DNA of 64,000 bases from Sycon ciliatum. Taxonomy: Eukaryota > Porifera > Calcarea > Leucosolenida > Sycettidae. Where the stretch lies: positions 28,737,294-28,801,293 of the forward strand of contig NC_088645.1 in NCBI RefSeq assembly GCF_964019385.1, given 5' to 3'. Every line of letters starts with the position of its first letter. Within the stretch, counting starts at the first letter, position 1. This document shows positions 3,623 to 61,074 of this stretch, piece by piece. The translations under genes and the position numbers were made by a program. Below the pieces are notes generated by a model, which worked only from the letters and a program-made list of their open reading frames with translations, did no database searches and was not told the DNA's origin.

Positions 3623-3940
3623 CTGAAGTCCCATGAACGGGCAAAAAAGAATCAATATGCCAGCCGCGTTGTGAATGTCGAGCGAGGATCGTTCACCCCA
3701 CTGGTGTTCTCGACTTATGGTTTCAGCGGGCCTGAGACAACTCAATTCCTAAAGTCTCTTGCCTCTCTCTTTGTAGAGAGAAGCCAGGATCTCAAATATC
3801 CTGTTGTCATGGGTATGTTGCGTACCCGCCTGTCGTTTTGCCTCTTGAGGTGGGCCATTACGTGTTTTCGTGGTTGCCGAGGGTCTTATAACAGACGGCG
3901 GGTGAATTCCTTTGTGGCCCAGTGTCGTTTGGCCGCATAG
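3623..3940 (+). pseudogene. B-subfamily LINE C-terminal fragment
   Basis: About 105 residues from LKSHERAKKNQYASRVVNVE to the stop at 3940, homologous to the last part of the A1 polyprotein. The upstream reading frame here is only the ATG repeat read as Met, so there is no true start codon. It is a dead 5'-truncated piece. Confidence 0.8.
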
Positions 3941-4186
3941 TGAATTTTTATGCTATGCCTCTCAACAATATCACTATGGATAACATCACATTTTTTAAAT
4001 AACTATTTGGTAAAGTAACATCATCTGTCATTCAATATCTATCTGGTGAAATAATCAGCATTTGAATATCTATTTGGTACTAATCATTCAACTGTTAAAT
4101 GTCATATTTTACCTGAATATCTATCACGATTTTTGCACATAATCTCGGTTATCACCGTTTCAAGCCCGTACAAGAGGCCGTTTCCA

Positions 4187-4227: not shown

Positions 4228-5412
4228 CCGCCCAACCGTCATACAATCAGCCAATAACCATACTCAATAAATCTGATTTCCGGGATGCTCTCTGCTTCCG
4301 GTACGGTTTGGAGCTGGATGGCCTCCCTGAGACTTGTGTTTGTGGAGCAACTCTAACCACTGAGCATGCAATGGCTTGTCCTACTGGCGGCTACACCATC
4401 GCACGCCATAATGATGTTCGCGATTTGCTGGCGGGTGTACTGTCGGAGGTATTGCCTGACGTGGAGGTGGAGCCGGTGCTAGCGCCATTTGATGGGGAGG
4501 ATCTTCCCCATCGTACAGCCAACAGGAAATCCGAAGCTCGCCTCGATGTGAAGGCGCGGGGTTTCTGGTCCAGGCAGCAGGAGGCTTTTTTTGATGTTCG
4601 GGTGACTCACCCAAAGCCAAACATGCTGTCGCGTCCAGAAGTCCAGCGCCATCTCCAAAAGCATGAAGGCATGAAAAAGCGGGAATACGGAGCGCGTGTT
4701 GTGAATATAGACCGAGGCACGTTCACCCCGTTGGTTTTCGCCACGAATGGCATGTGTGGCCGTGAGGCAGACCGCTTTCTCAAGTGTCTTGAAGCCCAGT
4801 ATGTCGATAAACACAGTGACTTGGCCTACTCGCTGGTTATGGGTCGATTGCGGTGCCTGCTCTCGTTCACTCTACTCCGTTGGGCAGTGACCTGTTTTCG
4901 TGGCTGCCGTAGCTCCTACCAGAAAAAGTCAGTCAAGAATTTCAGGAGTTATTGTTTGATGGGTCGTTAGATTGCGGCCGGTGTTTGTGAGACTGCAATC
5001 ATTTAACGTTTCTTCTTTAGTGGTGTAGGTAGATTCTGTTTTGTAAGCATAGTAGGACTACTTTTGTTTTGTAAGTCAATCTCATTCTCCACGCTTTGCT
5101 GTCATTTGGTTATGTTTTAAAGTAGTTTTTATGACCTGATGTTTTTTTTTTATATTTGTAGTTCTATTGTTGACATCTTTTGTCTTTTCTTTGGGTTAAA
5201 AGGTTAACTTCATCCTCGTTTTCTTATTGCCTTGTATTGGAATTTGCCCATAAAAGTGGCTACGGTGTGATAATGCATTTTTATATTTCGTGTTTTAACA
5301 TTATTTTCAGAAAATTGCTCTTACAATACCTTGCGTTTTATATTCATAATATTGTTGCCCGTAAAAGCGGCTTGGTCACATGATGATGATGATGGTGATG
5401 ATGATGATGATG

Positions 5413-5417
<5 letters not shown>
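4228..5417 (+). mobile_element. LINE copy C1, 5'-truncated, ending in (ATG)n
   Basis: Begins on the (ATG)n tract of B1 and runs through endonuclease coding sequence, a long T-rich 3' UTR (4971-5379) and a GCC-N9-GGC block (5357-5371) to an (ATG)n tract at 5380-5417 with one GTG interruption. Subfamily C differs from A and B in protein and 3' UTR. Confidence 0.8.
4266..4970 (+). pseudogene. C-subfamily LINE endonuclease domain fragment
   Basis: Open frame homologous to A1 from KSDFRDALC onward. It contains the CVCG...H...C cluster, RHNDVRDLL, EARLDVKARGFW, FFDVRVTHP and LRCLLSFTLLRWAVTCFRGC. The whole zinc/endonuclease module is intact, but the RT is missing because of 5' truncation. There is no natural start codon. 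A near-identical second copy lies at 16287-16898. Confidence 0.8.
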
Positions 5418-5443
<26 letters not shown>

Positions 5444-8245: not shown

Positions 8246-9399
8246 ATAATACTCATAAAAAGGACACACTTCAGGCTCATTACAAACATCTTGAAAGTTT
8301 TCGTCTTCACAAGTATACTTTCAAGCCTTCTCATCAGGTGAAATACAGGCAAGGGAAAAGGAACAGGAACAGTGGATTAAATACAGTAAGAAGGTGGTAA
8401 AACAGCGCAAAAAGAAAGAAAGAAAGAAAGAAGATAGCTAAAGTAAACAGCGAAAATTGCAATAATGACACAAAGGTGCAAATGCGAGAAAACTCAATAA
8501 GCGCGACATGTAGTGCGACAACAAGAGACAACCACTGGACATACATGTAACTAACGAGGTTTTGACGACCTACCTAACAGCCTAAGTGTGAATTTGATTT
8601 GTTTCTGCTTGCAAAGGTTGGGTTTCCTTGTGTGGATGTATACAGCTTCCAAAACATTCAGCAATCTAGCACTGCGTACACGTGACACAATCGAAAAACA
8701 ATCATCCGAATACACAGCACGACAATCAGGATGCTCAAACAAATGACTAGCAATGGACGACTCATACTTATCAGAACTAACATCAGAACAATCAGCATGT
8801 GCGGTGGACACATCCGATTTCACATGGCTAGTCGAGTGGACCCTAGCCGTTGCCTCTGTCTGTGCTTTAGTCGCTGCCATCGCCGCCGTTGCCGATCTTG
8901 TTATTCTTCTGGTTGATGCGGTTCCTGTCACTGCCACGCACGTAGGTGTCTTGTCCGGTTGTTTTTCTGGTGGTCTAGTTAATTGTGAGGTGACGTTCCT
9001 TGGTGTTGATGCCGCTGCGTTGGACCATCTTGTACCAGGATGATTCTTTGCTGGACGTCCCCTCCGTGGTCGAGTGGATCGTGCGTGTTGTGGAATAAGG
9101 TGTAGCGGTGCGTGTTGTCGGATGCGTGCGTCCAGATGTTGAAGAGTCCTACCTACATATCGGCTCTCACATTGCCGACACTCGAAGTGATAAATCAACT
9201 TGGATAATTGGCCTGTAGGTAGGACGTCCTTCCTCACCGTGAACGCACGCACCGTGGAGTAGATGAAGCGAATATGAACATTATGGTAATTAGACTCCAC
9301 GGCAGACTTAACCCGACGCTGAACCATACGTGATACTGACTCGCCCTTCCACGGTAAACATAGGTATACTGGATTAGTGGAAACCTCAGCATTCTTCTT
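8246..9399 (-). repeat. Left arm of the PLE inverted repeat
   Basis: Reverse complement of 10636-11789. Both arms are 1154 bp long, and the encoded protein segments appear identical, implying a recent event. The minus strand carries the C-terminal GIY-YIG part of the PLE protein (8551-9399) without the RT. Confidence 0.9.
8551..9399 (-). pseudogene. Inverted copy of the PLE endonuclease (GIY-YIG) C-terminus
   Basis: Encodes the same residues as the end of the main ORF: KKNAEVSTNPVYLCLPWKG..., then CRQCESRYVGRT and the HLFEHPDC region to the stop. It has no RT and no start codon. Reading continues to 9444 only through unrelated sequence past the junction. Confidence 0.85.
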
Positions 9400-11484
9400 G
9401 ATGCGCGGAGTGATACGGCGCAATACCCTATATCTCCTCAACATTACAAAGCTCGTAAAGAGTTACGCAATAATCCAGATATAGTCATCACAAGGCCTGA
9501 CAAGGGTCGAGCCGTAGTAATTTTGAAGAAAGCCGAATATATTGCTAAGACCCTTCACATTCTTTGCGATGCCTCTAAGTTTGTTAAGTTAGGTCCCGTC
9601 GAGTCACATGATCGTACCTCTATAATTGAAGATAAATTATGCGCCTTTCTTGATAGGTTGGTTGAGTCGAAGGAACTGATTGACTATGAGGCTAAGCTGC
9701 TTAAGCCTTTGGGTTCAGCTCGCCCTAGAATGTATGGCTTACCGAAGATTCATAAGAGGGATTGTCCTGTCCGGCCCATCCTTTCTATGTTAGGTTCTCC
9801 CCAGTATAAGATTTCTCGCTGGCTGTGTAGAATGTTGCAACCCGTTTTAGAATTATACAGTCGGTATGTAGTTCGCGATAGTTTTCAATTTGTCGATATT
9901 CTGCGCGACCACTCCTTCCCCGATACCTATGTTATGTGCTCTTACGATGTTGTTAGTCTGTTCACAAATGTCCCTTTGGATAAAGTCATTGATATTTGCT
10001 GCGAAACGCTATATCATCGCTCACTATGTCCGCCTGGCGAGTTACGTGAAGATTCGTTCCGCGAAATGATCCGCTTGGTAACGTCAGGTGTGGAGTTTTC
10101 CTTTGATGGTGTCATGTATCGACAGATTGATGGTGTTGCTATGGGTTCGCCCCTTGGTCCTGTTTTGGCAAATATATTTGTTGGTTATTACGAATGTCAG
10201 ATTCCGGTTAGTTTGATGCCCCCATTGTATGTGAGATTTGTCGATGATTCTTTCTCGTATTTTCAGTCTGAGGCTCAGTGCCTCCAATTTCGTGATCTGC
10301 TGAGGAAGGTTGTTGATGGTATGTTGGATTTCACGTGTGAATTTGAGGAGTCAGATCGTCTACCTTTTCTTGATGTGCTCGTTGAGAAGTCAATTGATGG
10401 TGGTGTTGTCACGTCGGTCTATCGCAAGCCTACGTTCACTGGCTTGTACATTGTTTGGGATTCGTTTTGCGCGACACTGTATAAGATCAATTTGTTGCGT
10501 AATTTGGTGGATCGTGCACGTCGCCTTTGTTCGTCTTCAAGGTTGGAGCAGGAGTTGGAGAAGTTACGTGCGCTTTTTCGTCTCAATGGATACCCCGAGT
10601 CTGTTATTGTGAAGTATGTAACTGAGACCAGTCCAAAGAAGAATGCTGAGGTTTCCACTAATCCAGTATACCTATGTTTACCGTGGAAGGGCGAGTCAGT
10701 ATCACGTATGGTTCAGCGTCGGGTTAAGTCTGCCGTGGAGTCTAATTACCATAATGTTCATATTCGCTTCATCTACTCCACGGTGCGTGCGTTCACGGTG
10801 AGGAAGGACGTCCTACCTACAGGCCAATTATCCAAGTTGATTTATCACTTCGAGTGTCGGCAATGTGAGAGCCGATATGTAGGTAGGACTCTTCAACATC
10901 TGGACGCACGCATCCGACAACACGCACCGCTACACCTTATTCCACAACACGCACGATCCACTCGACCACGGAGGGGACGTCCAGCAAAGAATCATCCTGG
11001 TACAAGATGGTCCAACGCAGCGGCATCAACACCAAGGAACGTCACCTCACAATTAACTAGACCACCAGAAAAACAACCGGACAAGACACCTACGTGCGTG
11101 GCAGTGACAGGAACCGCATCAACCAGAAGAATAACAAGATCGGCAACGGCGGCGATGGCAGCGACTAAAGCACAGACAGAGGCAACGGCTAGGGTCCACT
11201 CGACTAGCCATGTGAAATCGGATGTGTCCACCGCACATGCTGATTGTTCTGATGTTAGTTCTGATAAGTATGAGTCGTCCATTGCTAGTCATTTGTTTGA
11301 GCATCCTGATTGTCGTGCTGTGTATTCGGATGATTGTTTTTCGATTGTGTCACGTGTACGCAGTGCTAGATTGCTGAATGTTTTGGAAGCTGTATACATC
11401 CACACAAGGAAACCCAACCTTTGCAAGCAGAAACAAATCAAATTCACACTTAGGCTGTTAGGTAGGTCGTCAAAACCTCGTTAG
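9400..11484 (+). CDS. PLE protein: reverse transcriptase with C-terminal GIY-YIG endonuclease (N-terminally truncated)
   Basis: The frame is open from the junction at 9400 and includes ITRPDKGRAVVIL (9484-9522), a conserved PLE RT entry motif upstream of the first start-like codon at 9523. Counting from 9523: YGLPKIHK near 71, YDVVSLFTNVP near 145, MGSPLGPVLANIF near 208, and the catalytic FVDD near 239. The GIY-YIG nuclease is near 435-470 (CRQCESRYVGRT), with HLFEHPDC further on and a final segment ending LCKQKQIKF. These enzymes prime reverse transcription at a nick they make. The linker is Arg/Thr/Ala-rich. No disabling stop is seen; only the N-terminus is missing. Confidence 0.9.
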   Translation, partial: DARSDTAQYPISPQHYKARKELRNNPDIVITRPDKGRAVVILKKAEYIAKTLHILCDASKFVKLGPVESHDRTSIIEDKLCAFLDRLVESKELIDYEAKLLKPLGSARPRMYGLPKIHKRDCPVRPILSMLGSPQYKISRWLCRMLQPVLELYSRYVVRDSFQFVDILRDHSFPDTYVMCSYDVVSLFTNVPLDKVIDICCETLYHRSLCPPGELREDSFREMIRLVTSGVEFSFDGVMYRQIDGVAMGSPLGPVLANIFVGYYECQIPVSLMPPLYVRFVDDSFSYFQSEAQCLQFRDLLRKVVDGMLDFTCEFEESDRLPFLDVLVEKSIDGGVVTSVYRKPTFTGLYIVWDSFCATLYKINLLRNLVDRARRLCSSSRLEQELEKLRALFRLNGYPESVIVKYVTETSPKKNAEVSTNPVYLCLPWKGESVSRMVQRRVKSAVESNYHNVHIRFIYSTVRAFTVRKDVLPTGQLSKLIYHFECRQCESRYVGRTLQHLDARIRQHAPLHLIPQHARSTRPRRGRPAKNHPGTRWSNAAASTPRNVTSQLTRPPEKQPDKTPTCVAVTGTASTRRITRSATAAMAATKAQTEATARVHSTSHVKSDVSTAHADCSDVSSDKYESSIASHLFEHPDCRAVYSDDCFSIVSRVRSARLLNVLEAVYIHTRKPNLCKQKQIKFTLRLLGRSSKPR

Positions 11485-11789
11485 TTACATGTATGTCCAG
11501 TGGTTGTCTCTTGTTGTCGCACTACATGTCGCGCTTATTGAGTTTTCTCGCATTTGCACCTTTGTGTCATTATTGCAATTTTCGCTGTTTACTTTAGCTA
11601 TCTTCTTTCTTTCTTTCTTTCTTTTTGCGCTGTTTTACCACCTTCTTACTGTATTTAATCCACTGTTCCTGTTCCTTTTCCCTTGCCTGTATTTCACCTG
11701 ATGAGAAGGCTTGAAAGTATACTTGTGAAGACGAAAACTTTCAAGATGTTTGTAATGAGCCTGAAGTGTGTCCTTTTTATGAGTATTAT
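10636..11789 (+). repeat. Right arm of the PLE inverted repeat
   Basis: Covers the C-terminal half of the PLE ORF and the 3' UTR and pairs with 8246-9399. The 3' UTR holds CTGATGAG (11698) and CGAAAAC (11732) boxes. Confidence 0.9.
11698..11749 (+). ncRNA. Degenerate hammerhead-like motif in the PLE 3' region
   Basis: CTGATGAG at 11698-11705 and CGAAAAC at 11732-11738 are the two conserved hammerhead boxes, in the right order and spacing, and PLEs are known to carry hammerheads. I cannot draw a clean stem I here, while CTTGAAAGT/ACTTTCAAG can pair across the core. It may be decayed or an unusual variant. A mirror copy is on the minus strand at 8297-8337. Confidence 0.35.
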
Positions 11790-12949: not shown

Positions 12950-14901
12950 TCATTCCTCCGGCACAGGCGGACACAGCTCATCCTTGTAAGGGTCTGCCAC
13001 AAACGGGCGGATATCCTTGAACAGGTACTTCTGGCGTTCTTGTGACAGACCTGCTGGGGGCAACACTTGGGGAAGGCCTGCTGCCCTCACCTGCTCAGGT
13101 GTGGTCTTCAACAGCTGCACCTTGGTTTCCATCCCATCCACAAGCTCCATCACTGCCACTGCTCCAGGTTCGTCGGATGAGAACCGGAAATGATGCTGCT
13201 GGCTGATGTTGGGGACTTTTTTGAAGAGCCGGGCGAGGTACGTATCCCACTCAAACCAGGTCACATTGCCAGGGATCCGTCGATGGATGTTGGAGGTAGC
13301 GCTGGAGTCAACCACATCTGCTAACTGCTGCATGCTGAACACGTCAGAGCGACGGTATTTCCTCTTAACCAAGCCAAACATACCGTCGACTAGGCATCTG
13401 GTATGGCCGGTTATCATAAACGACAATGTTATACTTCTGTGCAAATTGACAATGCAACGCCATGCAAGGTAAGCTATAGCAGACTTATTTTTGTTTTGTC
13501 CTGCGCAATTATCTGCATGTACGTAGCAGTCATACTCATCAGCAACAGAAGTGGAAAAATAGTCGTGCAACAAAGAAATTACAGTGTTCGGATTGTGGCT
13601 CTTCTTGCCGTCAGGACCGATGGTTTCTGCCTCGTCAATAATGTAGTTCACCTGTTGGCCAACGCCTTCATTACATACACCAAACAAGTGGACTTTCCGA
13701 GGCACTTTGAAGTAAAGTGGTCCTGTCTGGCCGTATACGGCAAGCTGACGCTCTGAGCAAAGTCAAACGTGTAGTGGGACTTTGTTAACGGCGGGCGATC
13801 AGCAGGAGACATGGCTGAAACTTGCTGAAGCTCAGCGGCAGCATCTGTGGTTCTCTGCCGGTAGCTTTCTCTCTCCCTCTGGGCCCTATGAACATGGTCA
13901 GTCAGCTGAGTGCATGCGGTCGTCTTCTGCTCCTCACTCCCAGCCGCCATCACGTTGCGCCGCAAGTCCTCGCACACAGGGCAAACATCCATGCGAGCCG
14001 TCATGAACTTAATATGCGGTAATGTCTGGTGCCAGATTGAGCGGAACGTCGACAAGGATACAGACTTCTTACCCTCCTTGTGGCAGCAGTCGCAGAAGTC
14101 TCCATGCACGGACTTGTACGTTTGCGACGCTGGAAGGAAGATAGGTGGCGTGTCGTCTCTGCCACGGAGCGGCGCAGGATGTGGAATTCCAAACACTTCC
14201 GCGTGCCCAGTGATGTATTCCACGCAGTACTTCACAACAGCAAACTCCAGGGCATTGTGTGGCCGTTTGCCTGTGTTGCCGTGCACTAGTGGCACAAGCC
14301 CATTCTTCTCCAGGTGGCTTCTGTACCGTTTCAGCCTCTTGCTAGACAGTGCGTACACGTGACGGAACGCACCCACACAAACAGTTAGTCCTTGGAATTT
14401 GTAGGTAAAACGCTCCCTCTTGCGCTTCTCTCCACTCTTAAAAACTGTTTCAGGATGACTCAAAGCTTCAAGAAGGCCCAGGACCACCAGCTCACTCTCG
14501 TGCGACTCCATTTCTCTCATGTTGAGGATCGACGTCTCGATGTCAGCTGGGTCAAATTGCTGCAAGCAATTTTTTGAACATCCGCAGTTCTCTTTTTGAC
14601 GAACAGTGTCATCCTCCTCTGGCGGCGCAACGGTCGCTGCACAAGCTGCTGCGGAGCTAGCCTGCGGAGGTTTGGGCTCTGCCTTTCCGACATACAGCTC
14701 TGCTGCTGCATCGACATCCACTCGCTGCTCAAGAAAGTGTTCACCATCGTCATCGTCATCGCCATCATCGTCGCCGTCGTCAGATTGAACCGAAACATCA
14801 CTGGCGTCCGACTCGTCTTCCTCACCAAAAACTTCAGCCTCATCCTCTTCCAGGAGAGATTTCAGCGCTTCGTTCACAGTGAAACATTTACGATGGCTCA
14901 T
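12950..14901 (-). pseudogene. DUF7869-like putative transposase, broken by one frameshift
   Basis: Two overlapping minus-strand frames: 14901-13648 (N-terminal, 417 aa) and 13705-12950 (C-terminal). The N-terminal part has an acidic stretch, a Cys cluster (CGCSKNCLQQF), an HGNTGKRPHNALEF segment and CPVCEDLRRN. The C-terminal part has HADNCAGQNKNKSAIAYLAW and ITGHTRCLVDGMFGLVKRK, hallmarks of DUF7869 proteins common in invertebrate genomes. The frames must switch near 13735-13745, between SVSLPY and a TGPLYFKVPRK-like segment, so about one base is lost or two gained. No consensus intron is seen there. Its position between TIRs makes a transposase role likely, though DUF7869 function is not firmly known. 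Confidence 0.75.
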
Positions 14902-15292: not shown

Positions 15293-15453
15293 AAATAATC
15301 AGCATTTGAATATCTATTTGGTACTAATCATTCAACTGTTAAATGTCATATTTTACCTGAATATCTATCACGATTTTTGCACATAATCTCGGTTATCACC
15401 GTTTCAAGCCCGTACAAGAGGCCGTTTCCAATGATGATGATGATGATGATGAT

Positions 15454-15708
15454 CGTTCACCCCACTGGTGTTCTCGACTTATGGTTTCAGCGGGCCTGAG
15501 ACAACTCAATTCCTAAAGTCTCTTTCTTGCCTCTCTCTTTGTAGAGAGAAGCCAGGATCTCAAATATCCTGTTGTCATGGGTATGTTGCGTACCCGCCTG
15601 TCGTTTTGCCTCTTGAGGTGGGCCATTACGTGCTTTCGTGGTTGCCGAGGGTCTTATAACAGACGGCGGGTGAATTCCTTTGTGGCCCAGTGTCGTTTGG
15701 CCGCATAG
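15454..15708 (+). pseudogene. B-subfamily LINE C-terminal fragment, frameshifted
   Basis: Matches B1 and B3 from SFTPLVFSTYGF to the stop at 15706-15708, broken by the 4-base insertion in the KSLASL region. Confidence 0.7.
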
Positions 15709-15956
15709 TGAATTTTTATGCTATGCCTCTCAACAATATCACTATGGATAACATCACATTTTTTTAAATAACTATTTGGTAAAGTAACATCATCTGTCAT
15801 TTAATATCTATCTGGTAAAATAATCAGCATTTGAACATCTATTTGGTACTAATCATTCAACTGTTAAATGTCATATTTTTACCTGGATATCTATCACGAT
15901 TTTTGCACATAATCTCGGTTATCACCGTTTCAAGCCCGTACAAGAGGCCGTTTCCA

Positions 15957-16010
<54 letters not shown>
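15454..16010 (+). mobile_element. LINE copy B6, 5'-truncated, ending in (ATG)n
   Basis: Begins on the tract 15431-15453 at CGTTCACCCCACTGG. The coding remnant (15454-15708) has a 4-bp TTTC-type insertion near 15522 relative to B1, so it is frameshifted. The 3' UTR and tail tract (15957-16010) follow. Confidence 0.8.
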
Positions 16011-16247
16011 TTTGTTTTTTATATTTGTAGTTCTATTGTTGACATCTTTTGTCTTTTTCTTTGGGTTAAAAGGTTAACTTCATCCTTGTTTTCTTATTGC
16101 CTTGTATTGGAATTTGCCCATAAAAGTGGCTACTGTGATAATGCATTTTTATATTTCGTGTTTTAACATTATTTTCAGAAAATTGCTCTTACAATACCTT
16201 GCGTTTTATATTCATAATATTGTTGCCCGTAAAAGCGGCTTGGTCAC

Positions 16248-16283
<36 letters not shown>

Positions 16284-16286
16284 ATG
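16011..16286 (+). mobile_element. LINE copy C3, 3' UTR only, ending in (ATG)n
   Basis: Starts on the tract at TTTGTTTTTTATATTTG of the C 3' UTR and ends with GCCCGTAAAAGCGGC and the tract 16248-16286. Confidence 0.8.
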
Positions 16287-16898
16287 ACTGAGCATGCAAT
16301 GGCTTGTCCTACTGGCGGCTACACCATCGCACGCCATAATGATGTTCGCGATTTGCTGGCGGGTGTACTGTCGGAGGTATTGCCTGACGTGGAGGTGGAG
16401 CCGGTGCTAGCGCCATTTGATGGGGAGGATCTTCCCCATCGTACAGCCAACAGGAAATCCGAAGCTCGCCTCGATGTGAGGGCGCGGGGTTTCTGGTCCA
16501 GGCAGCAGGAGGCTTTCTTTGATGTTCGGGTGACTCACCCAAAGCCAAACCTGCTGTCGCGTCCAGAAGTCCAGCGCCATCTCCAAAAGCATGAAGGCAT
16601 GAAAAAGCGGGAATACGGAGCGCGTGTTGTGAATATAGACCGAGGCACATTCACCCCGTTGGTTTTCGCCACGAATGGCATGTGTGGCCGGGAGGCAGAC
16701 CGCTTTCTCAAGTGTCTTGCAGCCCAGTATGTCGATAAACACAGTGACTTGGCCTACTCGCTGGTTATGGGTCGATTGCGGTGCCTGCTCTCGTTCACTT
16801 TACTCCGTTGGGCAGTGACCTGTTTTCGCGGCTGCCGTAGCTCCTACCAGAAAAAGTCAGTCAAGAATTTCAGGAGCTATTGTTTGATGGGTCGTTAG
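16287..16898 (+). pseudogene. C-subfamily LINE endonuclease fragment
   Basis: Nearly identical to C1 (4266-4970) from TEHAMACPTGGYTIARHNDV to the stop at 16898, including EARLDVRARGFW and FFDVRVTHP. The upstream Met run is translated microsatellite, not protein. Confidence 0.8.
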
Positions 16899-17320
16899 AT
16901 AGAGGCCGGTGTTTGTGAGACTGCAATCATTTAATGTTTCTTCCTTAGTGGTGTAGGTAGATTCTGTTTTGTAAGCATAGTAGGACTACTTTTGTTTTGT
17001 AAGTCAATCTCATTCTCCACGCTTTGCTGTCTTTTGGTTATGTTTTAAAGTAGTTTTTATGACCTGATGTTTGTTTTTTATATTTGTAGTTCTATTGTTG
17101 ACATCTTTTGTCTTTTCTTTGGGTTTTAAAAGGTTAACTTCATCCTCGTGTTCCTATTGCCTTGTATTGGAATTTGCCCATAAAAGTGGCTACGGTGTGA
17201 TAATGCATTTCTATAAATTATTTCGTGTTTTAACATTATTTTCAGAAAATTGCTCTTACAATACCTTGCGTTTCATATTCATAATATTGTTGCCCGTAAA
17301 AGCGGCTTGGCCACATGATT

Positions 17321-17353
<33 letters not shown>

Positions 17354-17375
17354 TTGATGATGATGATGATGATGA
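16287..17375 (+). mobile_element. LINE copy C4, 5'-truncated, last copy of the array
   Basis: Truncated just inside the zinc cluster (ACTGAGCATGC) on the tract 16248-16286. It has coding sequence to 16898, the C 3' UTR and the tract 17315-17375 (with ATT and GTT interruptions). Unrelated sequence begins at 17376, ending the array. Confidence 0.8.
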
Positions 17376-43364: not shown

Positions 43365-44023
<659 letters not shown>

Positions 44024-44294: not shown

Positions 44295-45017
44295 TCACCG
44301 TAGATACTGCACGAGTTCAGGTGGTTGCAGTTCAAAGTACGCTGACGTCTTGTTCCCTCGGCGAATGATAGTTCTGCAATTGCAAAGCAAAGCAGCAACT
44401 TTGTAGTAAACAGCGATGGGCTGAAGTCCAAGCTTCAGCTGCTTGTAATTGTTGATCAGCGCCCAGTAGGTGCTCACTTCACCAAATGCCCACTCCACCG
44501 TTTGACGCGCGGAATTCATGGCCGTGTTGAACTCACGTTGTTGTGGAGTTACATTCCCACCAAGATACCCCTTCTGGATGAATTGGCTGAAAGGATACGC
44601 TGGATCACCGTACAGTGCATAGCACCGGCCATCGGGAAGGCGCACGTTGTTCTGAAGCTCGACCAGGAGATGGCTTTCCGCTAAGACTCCTGCATCGTGA
44701 CGGCGGCCTTCTACAGGGCCAAATAGATGGGTGATTAGTCCATCCGGTGTGGTCACTGCTTGAAATTTTAATGCATGGACGCGCTTGTGCCCGTTGTAAA
44801 AGATGCGCTGATTATGCCCGGGACGGCACATGGGGCGGACTGTACCGTCAATGAATCCCCAGATGAGCATATCTACACCAGTTTTCCGTTGGATAGCGTC
44901 GCTGTAGGACCGCAATGTAGCTGGGGTGAGGCATTCGTAAGAAGACCATAGGTCTGTGGGAAACACCCTAGTAAAATAAATAAAATAATAATAATAATAA
45001 TAAAAATCCTTGGTCAA
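44295..45017 (-). CDS. Harbinger transposase, DDE half
   Basis: 240-aa frame. Residues 1-16 come from an ATT repeat/intron and are not real. Then FIDGTVRP (D57), YNGHKRVHALKFQ, GPVEGRRHDAGVL, LYGDPAYP (D138) and VEWAFGEV (E175) make up a complete DDE_Tnp_4/HARBI1-type catalytic core. It would cut and join transposon ends. The N-terminal half is in a different frame at 45663-44968, separated by an ATT-rich stretch (44973-45006). A TTTACTAG acceptor precedes the conserved sequence, and GT dinucleotides near 45045-45052 could be the donor of an intron of about 80 nt. Alternatively microsatellite growth broke the gene. Confidence 0.8.
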   Translation of the reverse strand: MTKDFYYYYYYFIYFTRVFPTDLWSSYECLTPATLRSYSDAIQRKTGVDMLIWGFIDGTVRPMCRPGHNQRIFYNGHKRVHALKFQAVTTPDGLITHLFGPVEGRRHDAGVLAESHLLVELQNNVRLPDGRCYALYGDPAYPFSQFIQKGYLGGNVTPQQREFNTAMNSARQTVEWAFGEVSTYWALINNYKQLKLGLQPIAVYYKVAALLCNCRTIIRRGNKTSAYFELQPPELVQYLR

Positions 45018-45663
45018 AAGGGTTTTCGATCACGTGACTCCACCGGTTCCATATCCATAGCAGTGTCGTATTAAATATCCGACTTATATCTTCTTCGTAC
45101 CGCCCAAACTCCTCAGCCAGATCTACCAATCGGCAAGGAAATGCCAATCGCCTCAACACAACCAGTAGACCATCCATCCCTGTCCACGTGATCCTATTGA
45201 CGCCTCTCATAGTCTGAGGCATACGCAAAGCATCGCACAATTCGTGTAACTCCGCCTTGACAAATCGAAATCGGAGCATGCAAGCGTCATCTGGCAGAGA
45301 TCGTATGCAAAGACGTGGAGGGAGTCTCCTCCTTTCGATGTTCAACTGGCAATCATCCTCCAACGCAAGGATAAGCAAAAGCAGCTTATCCTTACCCAGT
45401 AGACCTTTGTCGTAGGCAAAGAGCAAAACTGCCAACGTCTGATCAAACTCTTCAGCCATGCCCAACTCGTGCAGATAACGCTGTTTCCAAAGCTCGTACA
45501 CACAAAAGCAGGGAGTAGTCGATTGCGATATGTTGTAGTCGGAGTAAGTTTGACTACAACAAAAAAATACGCCCTCCCCTTCGACTCGTAAGTTCGTCGG
45601 AGTGTTTGGAGATGAAGCTTTCAAGCGCTTCAACTCCTTCATATCATGAGAACACGGGGTCAT
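44968..45663 (-). CDS. Harbinger transposase, N-terminal half
   Basis: 231-aa frame with FRFVKAELHELCDALRMP, GMDGLLVVLRRLAFPCRLVD, LAEEFGRYEEDISRIFNTTL and WIWNRW, the helix-turn-helix region that precedes the DDE core in Harbinger transposases. The last residues (LLLLLLFYLFY) are translated repeat or intron. The first about 60 residues are not conserved in any family I know; the start may be further in. Confidence 0.75.
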   Translation of the reverse strand: MTPCSHDMKELKRLKASSPNTPTNLRVEGEGVFFCCSQTYSDYNISQSTTPCFCVYELWKQRYLHELGMAEEFDQTLAVLLFAYDKGLLGKDKLLLLILALEDDCQLNIERRRLPPRLCIRSLPDDACMLRFRFVKAELHELCDALRMPQTMRGVNRITWTGMDGLLVVLRRLAFPCRLVDLAEEFGRYEEDISRIFNTTLLWIWNRWSHVIENPFDQGFLLLLLLFYLFY

Positions 45664-45753: not shown

Positions 45754-45960
45754 TTAAAGGGGAACTCCACGAAAAATGAAAATTTGATAGCCTGTAGAGC
45801 TTCGGGCGCGCGCTGAGTCGAATGGTCTTGGTCCGAAGTCTCTACGAGAAAGCGTTCACTGCACTGCTGTTACGGGCTGGCCACTGAGTAAGATGGCCGC
45901 CATTTCGTCACGTGCACGCTGCAGCGCGGTTGGCATAACAATCGAGTATGACGTACCCAC
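45754..45960. mobile_element. Kolobok-type terminus, partner end not found
   Basis: TTAA then AGGGGAACTCCACG, like the 21357 element start, but the following sequence differs, so it is another family. No matching inverse end was found up to 64000. It lies just past the end of the RAG1-like ORF and might be the left end of the element that holds it. Confidence 0.5.
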
Positions 45961-46074
45961 GCGTGCACGCATGCAATGCAAAAGCAAAGCAAAAATCAGA
46001 AAACGGAAATGCCTTTCGAAACCTTTTGTTTGAAAATACTACTTCAAAAAAGTATGCAGTTATCTCTTACTCTC

Positions 46075-49000
46075 TCACTCCTTGCGTCTTCGCTTTCGAG
46101 TAGATCGTTCTGGGAGCAGAGAAGCTAAATGCGGTAGCGTAGATGAGAGGTGCTGCCTGACTGTGACTTTCAGGCGCTCCAAGTTGTTGACGATCCCGCC
46201 GTGACGCTTTTCCAGAGAGTTGAATTCCGCATGGATGCTTTCACCTCCTTGCTCAGCAAGGAGTCCGAGACCAACGCCGAACGTATCCATTGAGGCTGGT
46301 ACATGTGCCTCCAGGAGGTGTAGCTTCGGCGTAATGTGGCCAAGCTTTCGTCTCACAATTTCAGCACGAGCAGTGCCCATGAACGTCCTGACGTCGGATT
46401 TGAAGGCCGCCAAATCTTCAGGTGTCATCTTCTTGCAAGACGAGTAACGTCGCCTGCATGCAGCGAACTGCTCCATAAGAGCCATGTATCGGCTGCAAAC
46501 ATCAGTGGCATCCGACAGAACACTGGCAGAGGCGGTGCGTCCGTCCTCTTGTATGACTGCCAGCGGTGCTGAAGCCAATTGCTCAATGACGGTGCTCTGC
46601 AAAGCGTGGTGAACATGGTTGCCGATGAAGCTTCCTCCATGGTACCGTTGGCGACAGATGTTGTTGCGCTGCAATACCTTGTCTAGGGACTGCTCGCATG
46701 GGCCACTGATGGTGCCCGTGATCCGCTGGATCTCCTCGACAAGACTGCTAGTCTCCTCCTCCAGAGATGACCTGGATGCTGCCTGCTGGGCACACTGGAC
46801 TTGGATCACCCCAGCTGCTGCCTGGATCTGCGCTGGGAGTAGCGTGTTGCTGTGCAATGCCAGCCAATCAAGCTGATTCCTCAACTGCTGGGCAGAGGCG
46901 TTAACAGCAATCAGCTCATCCTGCTTCTCCCGCAACTTTTGGTGTTTGGCCACAATGGTCGAGAACTGCTGGCTGTCAGCAGGTGTGGCAGGCCCAGATG
47001 CAGCCAGGGACATGTCCAGTGTCTGACAGTCCTTCACCAGCGCCTCAAAAATCCACTTGAAGATGCCCAAGTCAAGGTGGAGGACTGGGATGATTGCATC
47101 TTCAATGGGTATGGGCAGAATGACGGGACGGATGCAGTTCTTAAATCTTTTGGCATCGGGCAGACGAGCTCCCGCTGCAACAAACGCTGAGTGGCATGTC
47201 TCAAGTGAAGCTAGTGACCGACAGTTGGACGTGGCACCAGGCTGTTGGAACTCGGTCTTTGTGGCCTCGCAGTGAAGGCAAGGATGCACTGCACTTGATC
47301 CGGAGAGTCCATACTGCTGAGTTTGAAACTCATAGTCGCCAAACAGTAGAACTCTCACGGATCTTCCATGCCACAGAGTGCTGCTGAGGAGATTGATTTG
47401 CGACGCAAATGGCTGGAGAGCAGTGGCAAGGTTTGCTGGCGAGTCCTTCGCGGCAAAGACGACAAATGGAATGATATTCCGTATGGAATTAGGATGGCGT
47501 ACATTGCAAACTTGCACAGACATTTTAAACGAATCACCGCCATGGTCGCCACCCACTTTGACCCATATCTGGTCCTCTGGTATGACACCAGCATGCCAGA
47601 ACAATTGCTCAGTGCTGTCCAGCTGGTCCAGATAGCCGTGCACAGTTCCAACGAGATCAGGTAGCGCCACCATTGGCCTCATCTCTATTTCGGCGGTCTT
47701 GCCAATCACAAATGGCACATCCTCTGCAACTATGTTGACCTTTAGGTGTTCATTCAGCTGCTGCCGCATAGTACCTTCAGACTCAAGATGCAAGCCGTAA
47801 TCCTTCAGCCAGACCTTGAGCTTCCTGAGCTGAAACCAGGGCATGTGAAGATCAGCCTTCATGGCTAGTGTGCTGCCTTTTTCTATTGATCTTGGCAACA
47901 CACCTGCTGCAATCAGCAATGCCCTCCGCTCCTCTTCTGGCATGCGACGAATAGTGGCAGCTTGCTGCGCTTGAATACTGCTAGCACTGCTGCCGCAAAC
48001 GAGCTGCTCGGTTTGGCGTAACTCTAGGGATCTGCGACGCTGTGTCCGCTCTGATGCTTCGTCAGATGAAACTGTTCCAACTGTCGTTTTCTTCCAAATC
48101 TGGGAGGGACCCTGGCTTCTGAGATGAAGTAGTCCATTGTCTGACTTCGATCGCACCAGGTGGCTTGTCAACTTTTCGGCAACATTGCCCTGCAACTTCT
48201 TTGGTGATGCATGAAGAATGTCACCAACGGGAGTTGTAGGTGTGATGGTGTGCTTGCCTGTATTGGTGCATGTCTGGCCATGGTGCTGAAGACTAGCTAG
48301 TGGTATATGCACACTACAACCATTGAAAGAGTCAAGATAATTGTCACAACGGACAAGCACTTCGGCTAAACAGTTCTTCAGCGTCAGGCTAGGAGTCAGC
48401 AACTGTGATGCTTGGAGTGGACTGCGGCATACTGGACACGAAGCATGCATGACCAGCCAATGCCATATGCAATCTACACAAAAATTCTTTCCGCAACAGC
48501 TTGCCTGCACAGATTTGTCCAGAATGTGTTTGCAGATGCTACAGATCAGCTCAGAGAAATTCATGATAAATCTGTCTGGGCTTAGTTCTCTCTCTGTTTT
48601 GTAACTTGGTGTAGCTCTGCTTATTAACTCTGACTTGGCGATATCTTGCCCCTGTAGCGACTCGTTTGTTGCGGAAATACTTGCAGGGCGGAGCTGCTTC
48701 TCAGCAGGCGTTGGTACCATTGTGCTGCTTGTACTGCTTGTGTTGGACTGTATACCAGATGCAGCTGGAGAAATCTGTGATGACTGCGTGGGTTGTGTGG
48801 AACTGGTGCATTGTGTGTCTGGTTGGGAACGTACAGGGGGTACAGTTGTGCGTTTTTTCTTTGCGGGTCGTCCACCAATTTTGATTTTCTCCACTCTTGA
48901 ACATGTCTTACACTGACTCTCAGCATCATGGGGTAACCACTCCACAGGGGATGCACATCCTCCACCACAACGATTGTATTTGTCACTGGATAGTGCCCTG

Positions 49001-49197
49001 TTGACAGTTTTGTTGCACGTACTGCAGAAGCGTGTGGGGTGGATATCAGGCTTGTCTTGGCTGACGTCTATCCCAAACGCTTTTTTTAGACCGTCCGCAT
49101 TTTCGCGGACACTATACAGTGTAGTTTGCTTACATTTAGTCAAGCGCACACCACCGACACGACAGAGAAGTGTCAGGGCTTGCAAGTGAGTGGCCAT
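46075..49197 (-). CDS. RAG1-like N-terminus fused to a transposase-like core (1040 aa, intronless)
   Basis: Start ATG 49197 (MATHLQAL) follows a non-conserved leader. Residues 42-105 (FGIDV...IHPTRFCSTCNKTVNRALSS...VEWLPH...CKTC) follow the RAG1 N-terminal zinc region closely. Residues 216-260 are a RING (CSICKHILDKSV, NFCVDC, CPVC) in the RAG1 position, followed by a C...H...C zinc segment (288-310). After a Ser/Gln linker, the core has KVGGDHGGDSF (Asp 551), FGDYEF, HPCLHC, VLHLDLG (Asp 709) and LLAEQGGESIH (Glu 982/986). These look like the three acidic sites and the CxxC of RAG1/Transib- or Chapaev-type transposases. A coiled coil is near 750-840 and the C-terminus is basic. There is no stop or frameshift. 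Related invertebrate elements (N-RAG-TP) are known; TIRs were not found here. Confidence 0.8.
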   Translation of the reverse strand: MATHLQALTLLCRVGGVRLTKCKQTTLYSVRENADGLKKAFGIDVSQDKPDIHPTRFCSTCNKTVNRALSSDKYNRCGGGCASPVEWLPHDAESQCKTCSRVEKIKIGGRPAKKKRTTVPPVRSQPDTQCTSSTQPTQSSQISPAASGIQSNTSSTSSTMVPTPAEKQLRPASISATNESLQGQDIAKSELISRATPSYKTERELSPDRFIMNFSELICSICKHILDKSVQASCCGKNFCVDCIWHWLVMHASCPVCRSPLQASQLLTPSLTLKNCLAEVLVRCDNYLDSFNGCSVHIPLASLQHHGQTCTNTGKHTITPTTPVGDILHASPKKLQGNVAEKLTSHLVRSKSDNGLLHLRSQGPSQIWKKTTVGTVSSDEASERTQRRRSLELRQTEQLVCGSSASSIQAQQAATIRRMPEEERRALLIAAGVLPRSIEKGSTLAMKADLHMPWFQLRKLKVWLKDYGLHLESEGTMRQQLNEHLKVNIVAEDVPFVIGKTAEIEMRPMVALPDLVGTVHGYLDQLDSTEQLFWHAGVIPEDQIWVKVGGDHGGDSFKMSVQVCNVRHPNSIRNIIPFVVFAAKDSPANLATALQPFASQINLLSSTLWHGRSVRVLLFGDYEFQTQQYGLSGSSAVHPCLHCEATKTEFQQPGATSNCRSLASLETCHSAFVAAGARLPDAKRFKNCIRPVILPIPIEDAIIPVLHLDLGIFKWIFEALVKDCQTLDMSLAASGPATPADSQQFSTIVAKHQKLREKQDELIAVNASAQQLRNQLDWLALHSNTLLPAQIQAAAGVIQVQCAQQAASRSSLEEETSSLVEEIQRITGTISGPCEQSLDKVLQRNNICRQRYHGGSFIGNHVHHALQSTVIEQLASAPLAVIQEDGRTASASVLSDATDVCSRYMALMEQFAACRRRYSSCKKMTPEDLAAFKSDVRTFMGTARAEIVRRKLGHITPKLHLLEAHVPASMDTFGVGLGLLAEQGGESIHAEFNSLEKRHGGIVNNLERLKVTVRQHLSSTLPHLASLLPERSTRKRRRKE

Positions 49198-49212
49198 TCC
49201 TGCAGCAATCAA

Positions 49213-49850
49213 GCAAAATTTGTCCGATGGGTCGGTTAGAAAAATTTAGGAACGGATTGCGACGGGGCTTGCGCGAATGGTTCCTCACCTGAATGAAGAA
49301 CACGCAAAAACTAAGAGAAGTCGTCGGAAAACTCAGGAAACAGGGAAGGAAGGGGGCGAATATCACTATCACAAAAGGTATCTACGTGTGTGCCACTGTG
49401 TGGTACGAACTGACATGAAGAACGAAAAGAGATCGCGGAAGATTGGTTTTTCCGAATTTCGATGTAGTTCCTTTTGGAGTCGCTGCAGTAGATGTACATG
49501 TCTCAGTTGCTTCGGTCGTTGTTCTTCTGAGTGGCATAGAAGCTGCTCAGGAGAGGCGAGAAGATGGAAAACGCGATCGAAAATGCACGTGAAAGTTTCA
49601 AAATTTCAAAATTCTCAGACCCTTGAGTACGGAAGAGTGCATGCGGCCGGTGTCCTCGTACCCGGGCTAATATGGCCATGATTATGTGCACTGTAACAGC
49701 AGCTTGAGATATTTCAATTTTAGCCACGCCCCATACCAATGTATGTGTGACGTCATTGTGGCATGGTGCGAAAATACTTGGATTTTGAATCTCACTTTCT
49801 TCAGGACGAAAGTCAATTCAGAAAGCAGTTTGCCAAGTCGCCCGAGCCGC
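49213..49850. other. Upstream region of the RAG1-like ORF
   Basis: Short open frames only. A duplicated AAAATTTCAAAATTTC run is near 49595. No promoter box or TIR recognised. Confidence 0.4.
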
Positions 49851-49854
49851 TGCA

Positions 49855-50048
49855 ATGCCAAATTGTTGTGTTGTTGGTTGTGCCAGTATCATATCATCCT
49901 CCTGGGGTTAGTTTTCTCAGATTCCCAAAGGATGGAGACCTGGCAAAGCGCCGAGATGTTGCAATGCGTCGTGAAAATTTCAAGCCTATTTTCGCAGCAC
50001 GAGCAATGTTTGCTCGCTGCATTTATGATCCAGAGGGACTTGAGAGCT
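49855..50048 (+). pseudogene. THAP-like zinc finger remnant
   Basis: The ATG frame gives MPNCCVVGCASII, then a stop. One base over, VSFLRFPKDGDLAKRRDVAM continues, matching THAP order (C-x4-C, then F..FPKD...R). No downstream C-x2-H is found. It is either a decayed gene or one with a tiny intron. 50050-50818 has no recognised gene. Confidence 0.5.
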
Positions 50049-57605: not shown

Positions 57606-57658
<53 letters not shown>

Positions 57659-58165
57659 GTAGAAGAGAAAAGGACATATGGATACGAGTTAAGAGTAACT
57701 CTCCATCACTGTAACATGATACTTTATACAGTCAGAAAGTGCAATAACTAGGCACAAAACTGACAGAGTACTGAAACATTCGACGTCCTGACACCTAGCT
57801 TCAACACATCTCCGTAGCGCTAACCGACAGCCTTCCAACTTGGAAGGTTCAAGGTTATGGAAAGACCAAAGAGGGGAAGGCAAGCGCAACGAAAACGAGC
57901 AAAAGCTACAGTCCCAACGGAACAAAGAATGTCGATTGTTACTGGACGATGACGAGACCAGTACGATATTTGACAAAGCGGTCTAACTACAATTCGAAGC
58001 AGCAAAGCAGCACACCACCCAACTTGGGTGGGTCATAAATATCAAAGATAAGTAAAGAAAGGGAAGCTTTGCGAAAACGAATTGTACAAGCCGAAAGCCA
58101 AACTCCTACAGTACTCCTCATGCATGACATTGTGATGGACTAGTTGACTACAAAACAAGTTGTTT

Positions 58166-58214
58166 CACACGACGTACGTTTCGCCGTATGGTTCGTGACG
58201 GCTCATCAGGTGTG
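58166..58214 (-). ncRNA. Hammerhead ribozyme, unit 1
   Basis: Minus strand, same 49-nt sequence as 60411-60459 (see that entry for the fold). Confidence 0.85.
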
Positions 58215-58756
58215 CAATATGAAACTCGGATGTTGAGCCATAAATAAATGTAGAAGAGAAAAGGACATATGGATACGAGTTAAGAGTAACTCTCCATCAC
58301 TGTAACATGATACTTTATACAGTCAGAAAGTGCAATAACTAGGCACAAAACTGACAGAGTACTGAAACATTCGACGTCCTGACACCTAGCTTCAACACAT
58401 CTCCGTAGCGCTAACCGACAGCCTTCCAACTTGGAAGGTTCAAGGTTATGGAAAGACCAAAGAGGGGAAGGCAAGCGCAACGAAAACGAGCAAAAGCTAC
58501 AGTCCCAACGGAACAAAGAATGTCGATTGTTACTGGACGATGACGAGACCAGTACGATATTTGACAAAGCGGTCTAACTACAATTCGAAGCAGCAAAGCA
58601 GCACACCACCCAACTTGGGTGGGTCATAAATATCAAAGATAAGTAAAGAAAGGGAAGCTTTGCGAAAACGAATTGTACAAGCCGAAAGCCAAACTCCTAC
58701 AGTACTCCTCATGCATGACATTGTGATGGACTAGTTGACTACAAAACAAGTTGTTT

Positions 58757-58805
58757 CACACGACGTACGTTTCGCCGTATGGTTCGTGACGGCTCATCAG
58801 GTGTG
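58757..58805 (-). ncRNA. Hammerhead ribozyme, unit 2
   Basis: Exactly 591 bp from the unit 1 copy, same sequence. Confidence 0.85.
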
Positions 58806-59347
58806 CAATATGAAACTCGGATGTTGAGCCATAAATAAATGTAGAAGAGAAAAGGACATATGGATACGAGTTAAGAGTAACTCTCCATCACTGTAACATG
58901 ATACTTTATACAGTCAGAAAGTGCAATAACTAGGCACAAAACTGACAGAGTACTGAAACATTCGACGTCCTGACACCTAGCTTCAACACATCTCCGTAGC
59001 GCTAACCGACAGCCTTCCAACTTGGAAGGTTCAAGGTTATGGAAAGACCAAAGAGGGGAAGGCAAGCGCAACGAAAACGAGCAAAAGCTACAGTCCCAAC
59101 GGAACAAAGAATGTCGATTGTTACTGGACGATGACGAGACCAGTACGATATTTGACAAAGCGGTCTAACTACAATTCGAAGCAGCAAAGCAGCACACCAC
59201 CCAACTTGGGTGGGTCATAAATATCAAAGATAAGTAAAGAAAGGGAAGCTTTGCGAAAACGAATTGTACAAGCCGAAAGCCAAACTCCTACAGTACTCCT
59301 CATGCATGACATTGTGATGGACTAGTTGACTACAAAACAAGTTGTTT

Positions 59348-59396
59348 CACACGACGTACGTTTCGCCGTATGGTTCGTGACGGCTCATCAGGTGTG
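59348..59396 (-). ncRNA. Hammerhead ribozyme, unit 3
   Basis: Exactly 591 bp from the unit 2 copy, same sequence. Confidence 0.85.
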
Positions 59397-59938
59397 CAAT
59401 ATGAAACTCGGATGTTGAGCCATAAATAAATGTAGAAGAGAAAAGGACATATGGATACGAGTTAAGAGTAACTCTCCATCACTGTAACATGATACTTTAT
59501 ACAGTCAGAAAGTGCAATAACTAGGCACAAAACTGACAGAGTACTGAAACATTCGACGTCCTGACACCTAGCTTCAACACATCTCCGTAGCGCTAACCGA
59601 CAGCCTTCCAACTTGGAAGGTTCAAGGTTATGGAAAGACCAAAGAGGGGAAGGCAAGCGCAACGAAAACGAGCAAAAGCTACAGTCCCAACGGAACAAAG
59701 AATGTCGATTGTTACTGGACGATGACGAGACCAGTACGATATTTGACAAAGCGGTCTAACTACAATTCGAAGCAGCAAAGCAGCACACCACCCAACTTGG
59801 GTGGGTCATAAATATCAAAGATAAGTAAAGAAAGGGAAGCTTTGCGAAAACGAATTGTACAAGCCGAAAGCCAAACTCCTACAGTACTCCTCATGCATGA
59901 CATTGTGATGGACTAGTTGACTACAAAACAAGTTGTTT

Positions 59939-59956
59939 CACACGACGTACGTTTCG
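59939..59956 (-). ncRNA. Truncated hammerhead at the array inversion point
   Basis: Only stem I, stem III and the GAA box remain before the sequence turns to the opposite orientation (TTTTCGCAAAGC). Confidence 0.75.
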
Positions 59957-60410
59957 TTTTCGCAAAGCTTCCCTTTCTTTACTTATCTTTGATATTTATG
60001 ACCCACCCAAGTTGGGTGGTGTGCTGCTTTGCTGCTTCGAATTGTAGTTAGACCGCTTTGTCAAATATCGTACTGGTCTCGTCATCGTCCAGTAACAATC
60101 GACATTCTTTGTTCCGTTGGGACTGTAGCTTTTGCTCGTTTTCGTTGCGCTTGCCTTCCCCTCTTTGGTCTTTCCATAACCTTGAACCTTCCAAGTTGGA
60201 AGGCTGTCGGTTAGCGCTACGGAGATGTGTTGAAGCTAGGTGTCAGGACGTCGAATGTTTCAGTACTCTGTCAGTTTTGTGCCTAGTTATTGCACTTTCT
60301 GACTGTATAAAGTATCATGTTACAGTGATGGAGAGTTACTCTTAACTCGTATCCATATGTCCTTTTCTCTTCTACATTTATTTATGGCGCAACATCCGAG
60401 TTTCATATTG

Positions 60411-60459
60411 CACACCTGATGAGCCGTCACGAACCATACGGCGAAACGTACGTCGTGTG
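60411..60459 (+). ncRNA. Hammerhead ribozyme, type I, plus-oriented copy
   Basis: Stem I CACAC (60411-60415) with GTGTG (60455-60459). CTGATGA at 60416-60422. Stem II GCCGT (60423-60427) with ACGGC (60438-60442) and a 10-nt loop. GAA at 60443-60445. Stem III ACG-TA-CGT (60446-60453). Cleavage after C60454 in a GUC triplet. Every conserved core base is present. The tiny stem III is typical of retrozyme and PLE hammerheads and implies activity in dimeric transcripts. Confidence 0.88.
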
Positions 60460-61074
60460 AAACAACTTGTTTTGTAGTCAACTAGTCCATCACAATGTCA
60501 TGCATGAGGAGTACTGTAGGAGTTTGGCTTTCGGCTTGTACAATTCGTTTTCGCAAAGCTTCCCTTTCTTTACTTATCTTTGATATTTATGACCCACCCA
60601 AGTTGGGTGGTGTGCTGCTTTGCTGCTTCGAATTGTAGTTAGACCGCTTTGTCAAATATCGTACTGGTCTCGTCATCGTCCAGTAACAATCGACATTCTT
60701 TGTTCCGTTGGGACTGTAGCTTTTGCTCGTTTTCGTTGCGCTTGCCTTCCCCTCTTTGGTCTTTCCATAACCTTGAACCTTCCAAGTTGGAAGGCTGTCG
60801 GTTAGCGCTACGGAGATGTGTTGAAGCTAGGTGTCAGGACGTCGAATGTTTCAGTACTCTGTCAGTTTTGTGCCTAGTTATTGCACTTTCTGACTGTATA
60901 AAGTATCATGTTACAGTGATGGAGAGTTACTCTTAACTCGTATCCATATGTCCTTTTCTCTTCTACATTTATTTATGGCTCAACATCCGAGTTTCATATT
61001 ATTATTATTATTATTATTTATTACATTTTTAATAGCCCTTTGAGCCTTGTATGTAATCGTTTACAGTGATGCTT

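Follow-up and report, generated by a model that had tools for sequence, protein, structure and literature searches.

A probable Chapaev transposon with a RAG1-like domain layout in the calcareous sponge Sycon ciliatum

Whether a calcareous sponge carries a relative of RAG1, and whether that relative is a gene of the RAG1 type or part of some other transposon, is the question raised by a long open reading frame (ORF) in the genome of Sycon ciliatum. The ORF lies in a stretch of 64,000 nucleotides (the window) on contig 3, 28,737,294-28,801,293, of an assembly of 538,412,230 bp in 313 contigs, which was searched for further copies. A first-pass annotation had described an intact RAG1-like ORF with a RING and a transposase-like core, and had guessed at a relation to Chapaev elements. 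We are highly confident that the ORF encodes the transposase of a Chapaev DNA transposon, a cut-and-paste element that was recently mobile (Table 1).

The reading frame is exact and uninterrupted, with no internal stops compared with a mean of 47 when the same bases are shuffled, and its start and end positions match those of full-length relatives. All of the strings quoted in the first-pass annotation were found in the translation. Another copy in the genome (L010) encodes a protein with no differences from that of the window, and the protein of a third (L011) differs by one residue.

The genome search returned at least 61 matches, of which 44 are places that match the core and 17 are N-terminal pieces on their own, a lower bound with 44 of 2,106 first-look candidates scored. 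The matched stretch was free of stops in 39 of the 44 core-matching places, and three places in the match table were 100% identical to the window protein. Twenty of the 44 were fetched and 18 examined for ends, excluding L015, which repeats L013 including its flanks, and L028, for which a second copy for comparison was lacking. Four families were distinguished, with a within-family identity of ~94-99.98% over a sharp-ended block. The window family is 3,843 bp long with a 12-bp terminal inverted repeat (TIR; CACTGCTGTTAC), and the other three measure 3,720-3,749, 4,092-4,100 and 3,850-3,853 bp with TIRs of 10-13 bp starting CACTGCTGTT or CACGGCTGTT. The CAC-starting TIRs that the first-pass annotation had proposed to look for around other copies were found in 16 of the 18 (10-13 bp, starting CACTG or CACGG), and an exact 4-bp target site duplication (TSD) was likewise present in 16 of the 18, spanning all four families and in no case extending to 5 bp. 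The two exceptions, L023 and the window copy, both have damaged ends, the latter retaining one end.

Both TSD halves are present in the three other members of the window family, L010, L011 and L012, the last of which is interrupted and 5,825 bp in length. Over 3,841 bases the window copy differs from L011 at one position and from L010 at five, and the flanks of the four family members gave no mutual blastn match. Based on the near-identical copies, sharp ends, TSDs and unrelated flanks we infer recent transposition; the differing flanks and TSDs also argue against the near-identical copies being assembly duplicates. Separately, L013 (contig 5) and L015 (contig 1) have 9.96 kb in common at 99.97% identity including flanks, consistent with a segmental duplication, a haplotig or an assembly duplicate. 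Within the window alone the ends were not found, because the window copy has one damaged end: TIRs from local alignment were not convincing (16 of 300 shuffles were as good), a combined TIR and TSD scan gave more matches than shuffles but none that was credible, and none of the 25 longest of 104 inverted repeats was the TIR of the element.

An intact ORF in a copy with a damaged end could also suggest a domesticated host gene, no longer mobile, as is vertebrate RAG1. Two copies at other sites are nearly identical and retain their ends and TSDs, and many related copies occur across the genome; both facts speak against domestication, to which we give almost no credence. A refinement compatible with a recently mobile Chapaev is that the window copy is immobile and its transposase acts only in trans on sisters with complete ends. 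Two terminal bases and the TSD are absent at 49702, so the window copy may be immobile, and it may be a source of transposase rather than itself mobile; its ORF is nevertheless intact and its protein identical to that of L010. Complete copies, however, carry the same ORF and are able to supply their own enzyme, and it is an assumption that two missing end bases abolish movement. We therefore consider action in trans only to be possible, although on balance unlikely.

The assignment to Chapaev draws on termini, motifs and domain content. The account of Chapaev in PMC4079192 lists as hallmarks a TSD of generally 3-4 bp, CAC...GTG termini, and an Asp-Asp-Glu (DDE) triad with a conserved LH and an H(4)H motif, while PMC12730594 characterises the CMCT clade by C(2)C and H(3-4)H motifs, mostly CA..TG termini and TSDs of 2-5 bp. 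The elements found here have 5'-CAC...GTG-3' inverted termini (16 of 18 copies), 4-bp TSDs (16 of 18, the window copy itself being an exception) and a DDE triad accompanied by C(2)C, LH and H(4)H. Residues 440-605 match DUF1280 (PF06918), a domain equated with Chapaev in PMC3985635, with an E value of 7.3e-18, over the Pfam cut-off. Conservation was judged on an alignment (A3) of 33 of the 36 sequences P0001-P0036, leaving out P0002 (the window's own protein, short), P0017 (truncated) and P0025 (a near-duplicate of P0024); DUF1280 was matched by 32 of the 33. The Chapaev relation guessed at in the first-pass annotation is thus supported by TSDs, termini, motifs and DUF1280.

The predicted structure of the protein contains a ribonuclease H (RNase H) core of the type found in Transib, RAGL and RAG1, such that a core without this fold, named beforehand as an outcome that would count against the annotation, was not seen. 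When the model was compared with known structures, RAG1 was the best match with BbRAGL a close second. The proposed catalytic set required partial revision. The Asp of GGDHGG (D551) stands, and probably corresponds to RAG1 D600. The second position passes from LHLDLG, whose Asp is conserved in 21 of the 30 rows (out of 33) without a gap there, to D621 in FGDYE, D621 and RAG1 D708 both lying 19 residues ahead of C-x2-C. The LH itself is a Chapaev signature as published in PMC4079192. In the AEQGGESI region, the likely catalytic residue is the second E of AEQGGES (E986) by alignment to RAG1 E962. Based on their places in the predicted fold, the acidic residues probably cluster.

Table 1 Features of the transposon copy in the window (positions are those of the window; row counts refer to the alignment of 33 relatives)
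Feature	Position	Strand	Basis or details
Whole element, 3,841 of 3,843 bp	45862..49702	-	Sharp identity break-points versus copies on other contigs
Surviving half of 4-bp TSD (ACTG), no partner opposite	45858..45861		Comparison with L010, L011, L012
Intact 12-bp TIR CACTGCTGTTAC, element 3' end	45862..45873	+	
Damaged 5' inverted repeat, 10/12 bp	49693..49702		Last two bases and TSD absent
Transposase ORF	46075..49197	-	ATG 49197, stop 46075-46077, 1,040 aa, no intron
Chapa zinc domain, residues 1-112, homologous to RAG1 N-terminal zinc region	48862..49197	-	Pfam PF12560; profile alignment to RAG1
RING and next zinc finger, residues 202-312	48262..48594	-	
Helical segment, residues 373-430, in place of RAG1 nonamer-binding domain, homology unproven	47908..48081	-	
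RAG1-like transposase core, residues 435-1033	46099..47895	-	
Likely catalytic Asp D551 (GGDHGG), first RNase H strand	47545..47547	-	33/33 rows; strand 543-553
Likely catalytic Asp D621 (FGDYE), aligned to RAG1 D708	47335..47337	-	32/33 rows, one gap
C640-x2-C643, C(2)C motif	47269..47280	-	32/33 rows, one gap
Long-helix hairpin, residues 738-830, between second Asp and Glu	46708..46986	-	
H960-x4-H965, H(4)H motif	46303..46320	-	27/33 rows, six gaps, no substitution
Likely catalytic Glu E986, aligned to RAG1 E962	46240..46242	-	27/33 rows, six gaps, no substitution

With RAG1 as the top structural match, BbRAGL close behind and a Chapa and RING layout like that of RAG1, one could read the ORF as a true sponge member of the RAG1-like (RAGL/Transib) genes or transposons. 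The TSDs indicate otherwise: each of the 16 copies in which both ends are present has exactly 4 bp and none has 5, compared with 5 bp for Transib as given in PMC4411706. A linked RAG2-like gene with Kelch or PHD domains, as expected beside RAGL or RAG1, was sought as the first-pass annotation had proposed, and neither the element nor any of the 10 nearby ORFs that were scanned contained one (36000-58000 has 30 listed stop-to-stop ORFs of at least 110 aa). Outside the ORF the element has only 213 + 505 bp, and its longest stop-free non-ORF stretch (143 codons, opposite strand) had a sole Pfam listing at E 0.69. The core matches DUF1280 rather than PF12940 (RAG1 core), and L029, the sole PF12940 match reported in the genome at 26.4 bits (cut-off 25), turned out to be a broken member of the window protein's own group. 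We rejected L029 as a separate RAG1-core gene, and the score of this broken Chapaev over the cut-off implies that PF12940 can just recognise a Chapaev. The L029 locus covers contig 9:19280864-19281268 and its surroundings, with separate ORFs for the Chapa, RING and C-terminal pieces. A RAGL or Transib identity is thus very improbable; the RAG1-like description holds for domain layout and core but fails for a RAG1 or RAGL gene, given the 4-bp TSDs and the lack of a RAG2-like neighbour in the ORFs scanned.

Vertebrate RAG1 and the amphioxus RAGL (ProtoRAG) have 5-bp TSDs as opposed to 4 bp here, where no RAG2 partner was seen; the window core is 16-17% identical by structure to the RAG1/RAGL core, and the window protein has a long-helix insertion. 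Transib (HzTransib) also differs in TSD length, and canonical Transib consists of the core domain only, as described in PMC4411706. A survey of RAGL reports molluscs, a nemertean and cnidarians, with neither 'sponge' nor 'Porifera' occurring in its main text (PMC7204232). By eye, GGRP and TRRR-like strings pointed to a counterpart of the nonamer-binding domain in the helical segment, but testing did not establish this homology.

Relatives of the window protein fall into three lineages. Trees were built from 28 and 32 of the 33 aligned rows, those dropped being hand-picked as short or fast. The sponge clade, comprising 21 of the 32 rows, received a support of 100/100 in the 32-row tree and 93/90 in the 28-row tree, a tree that also included the distant P0027. 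Its label was probably well chosen, given P0020 (named Sycon ciliatum and inside the clade), rows with 'scpid' names and the present genome. The EukProt sequence P0008, with a 'scpid' name, is 99.5% identical to the ORF of L024, and P0004 equally so to that of L013; we take this prefix to mark Sycon ciliatum. These protein matches point to a calcareous sponge, probably that species, as host. The second lineage comprises P0026 and P0028-P0030, the search for which also gave P0036 from Hydra vulgaris, too short for the tree, and the third includes Littorina (P0065) and unnamed rows, with the same query also matching Nucella and Plakobranchus. The terms Hydra-type and mollusc-type for unnamed rows are probable attributions based on these few named members. 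Each of the three lineages has at least some members with Chapa and RING. Beyond these, a scan of IMG/VR with the family profile gave 20 pattern matches and none confirmed, the near-mode search of a phage collection had no match, and Rfam had no match at the gathering threshold.

At the N-terminus, a profile of the 33 relatives searched against PDB chain sequences had mouse RAG1 as its top match (E 2.6e-31), with profile positions 4-255 collinear with RAG1 101-385, that is, the N-terminal zinc region, the RING and the next zinc finger. The RAG1-like N-terminus and RING claimed in the first-pass annotation were thereby borne out, and the contrary outcome, best matches only to unrelated RING proteins, was not observed. 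In single-sequence Pfam scans, RAG1_imp_bd was found at residues 3-123 (E 4.7e-9, over the cut-off) and RING at residues 219-258 (best E 5e-5); RAG1_imp_bd was matched in 20 of the 33 relatives. The Chapa region is modelled with a predicted local distance difference test score (pLDDT) of 72-94 by blocks over residues 1-110. The order of Chapa followed by RING is that of the Chapaev subgroup with both domains. One of the 33 relatives matched zf-AD (PF07776; E 4.8e-5) at its N-terminus, a single sequence match hinting that Chapa may be related to the zinc-finger-associated domain.

The modelled RING superposes on that of RAG1 at 1.7 Å; since the TRAF6 and LNX RINGs superpose almost equally well, this resemblance is not RAG1-specific and was dropped as evidence of that kind. 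The window RING (48424-48543) lacks the canonical zinc-ligand histidine and thus a complete C3HC4 set. Judged by eye from the strings, the C-x-H histidine is missing in 15 of 17 sponge-clade RING rows, the window protein included, with a Cys-Cys pair at its site in 16 of the 17; the histidine is retained in the six RINGs readable outside the clade. Among the 20 fetched copies from the genome, 19 have the Cys-Cys pair, with L028 additionally retaining a histidine, and a script found no RING in L012. The adjacent Cys pair may act as zinc ligand in place of the missing histidine.

Several observations weigh against a recently mobile Chapaev with a RAG1-like protein. The window copy is one of the two copies without a complete set of TIRs and TSD, lacking two terminal bases and one TSD at its high-coordinate end, and mobility is deduced from the copies. 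All RING models fell under Pfam cut-offs in the single-sequence scan. For the core, hmmscan with the single sequence did not list the RAG1 core model even at E values up to 1, the profile search matched the C-terminal core to that of RAG1 with an E value of 0.26, and the link to RAG1 comes from predicted structure and motif spacing.

Fusion of Chapa, RING and core in Chapaev has been published before (PMC4411706), and hence the architecture is already known. The Chapaevs with Chapa and RING described there (Kapitonov and Koonin 2015) have the same order of Chapa, RING and DDE core in animal hosts; its text on them names lancelet and sea anemone, and its tree legend has species codes that include Hydra, C. 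elegans and Aplysia but no sponge. Unlike that group as described, most sponge-clade RINGs lack the usual His ligand. A RAG1-like N-terminus in a mollusc mobile element, as in the present sponge element, is known from Aplysia N-RAG-TP (Panchin and Moroz 2008), likened here through its descriptions in PMC8355894, PMC2996935 and PMC13337447, and mollusc relatives of the window protein (Littorina, Nucella, Plakobranchus) were found in this study. No sponge Chapaev with the Chapa-RING architecture was evident among the open-licence literature matches listed, a scope that leaves Repbase reports outside; PMC4298943, which mentions both Chapaev and sponge, does so through a coincidence of wording. 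The window transposon is very probably a further Chapa-RING Chapaev with a clean RAG1-like layout, in a sponge host.

Two views of the origin of the RAG1 N-terminus are found in the literature: that a distant common ancestor already had Chapa, RING and core joined, with Transibs losing RING, as put in PMC4411706, and that an N-RAG-TP element donated the N-terminus, as put in PMC8355894. In the same alignment columns, mouse RAG1 is 24-27% identical to the Chapaev lineages in the Chapa part (lineages mutually 25-27%) and 22-28% in the RING part (mutually 22-23%), whereas in the C-terminal core segment (RAG1 876-1007) it is 15-18% identical to them and they are mutually 28-32% identical. These values are from 10 sponge-clade, two Hydra-type and five mollusc-type rows (three mollusc-type in the core), and a single RAG1 sequence with roughly a quarter of the core compared; the N-terminal identities agree in a second comparison. 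An N-terminus as close to the Chapaevs as they are to each other, with a far more distant core, is the pattern expected of a swapped-in N-terminus. This leads us to suggest, tentatively and as a rather doubtful proposition, that RAG1 is a mosaic, its Chapa-RING part having arisen inside the Chapaev lineages and joined a Transib-type core through module exchange, rather than both parts going back to a single ancient transposase in which they were already fused. Zinc-ligand constraint can by itself hold identity above a certain level, which weakens the mosaic proposal; the unrelated TRAF6 RING is 30% identical by structure. An N-terminal tree including RAG1 was given no vote on the matter, with a very long RAG1 branch (3.62) and unsettled forks.

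The Chapaev transposase would bind the CAC...GTG ends, probably as a dimer, and bring them together. Nicking and excision of the element would rely on a RAG1-type RNase H active site formed by D551, D621 and E986, in an order of cuts yet presumptive and possibly with the hairpin chemistry of RAG1 and Transib, and insertion would produce the 4-bp TSD. The RING may serve as a ubiquitin ligase or in dimerisation. Sponge elements that are intact, recently mobile and organised like RAG1 add sequence from a deep animal branch, and the transposon offers a tractable enzyme for asking what the Chapa and RING domains do. Its main use is as a well-preserved relative for tracing the front end of RAG1, and for the question of whether the two halves of RAG1 differ in age.

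The window contains other repeats and mobile elements. A THAP-like string noted by eye near 49850-50000 had no Pfam support in the frames scanned. A PIF/Harbinger-like transposase (44295-45663, reverse strand) matches DDE_Tnp_4 at 44298-45017 (E 1.4e-23) and is probably broken, given an adjoining ORF in another frame; a CA-repeat tract of 641 bp occupies 43380-44020. Two adjacent ORFs at 12950-14901 (reverse strand), one with DUF7869 (E 5.6e-24), are possibly a further mobile element. A 1,023-aa reverse-transcriptase ORF and nearby repeated stretches, 94-98% identical, are found at 118-3189, 4359-5420 and 15448-17355. Inverted copies of 1,154 bp, 100% identical (8246-9399 and 10636-11789), lie at a reverse-transcriptase ORF end with a weak GIY-YIG match, and may be an inverted Penelope-like element or result from the assembly. 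Repeat units of ~591 bp, 99-100% identical and both direct and inverted, fill 57658-61000.
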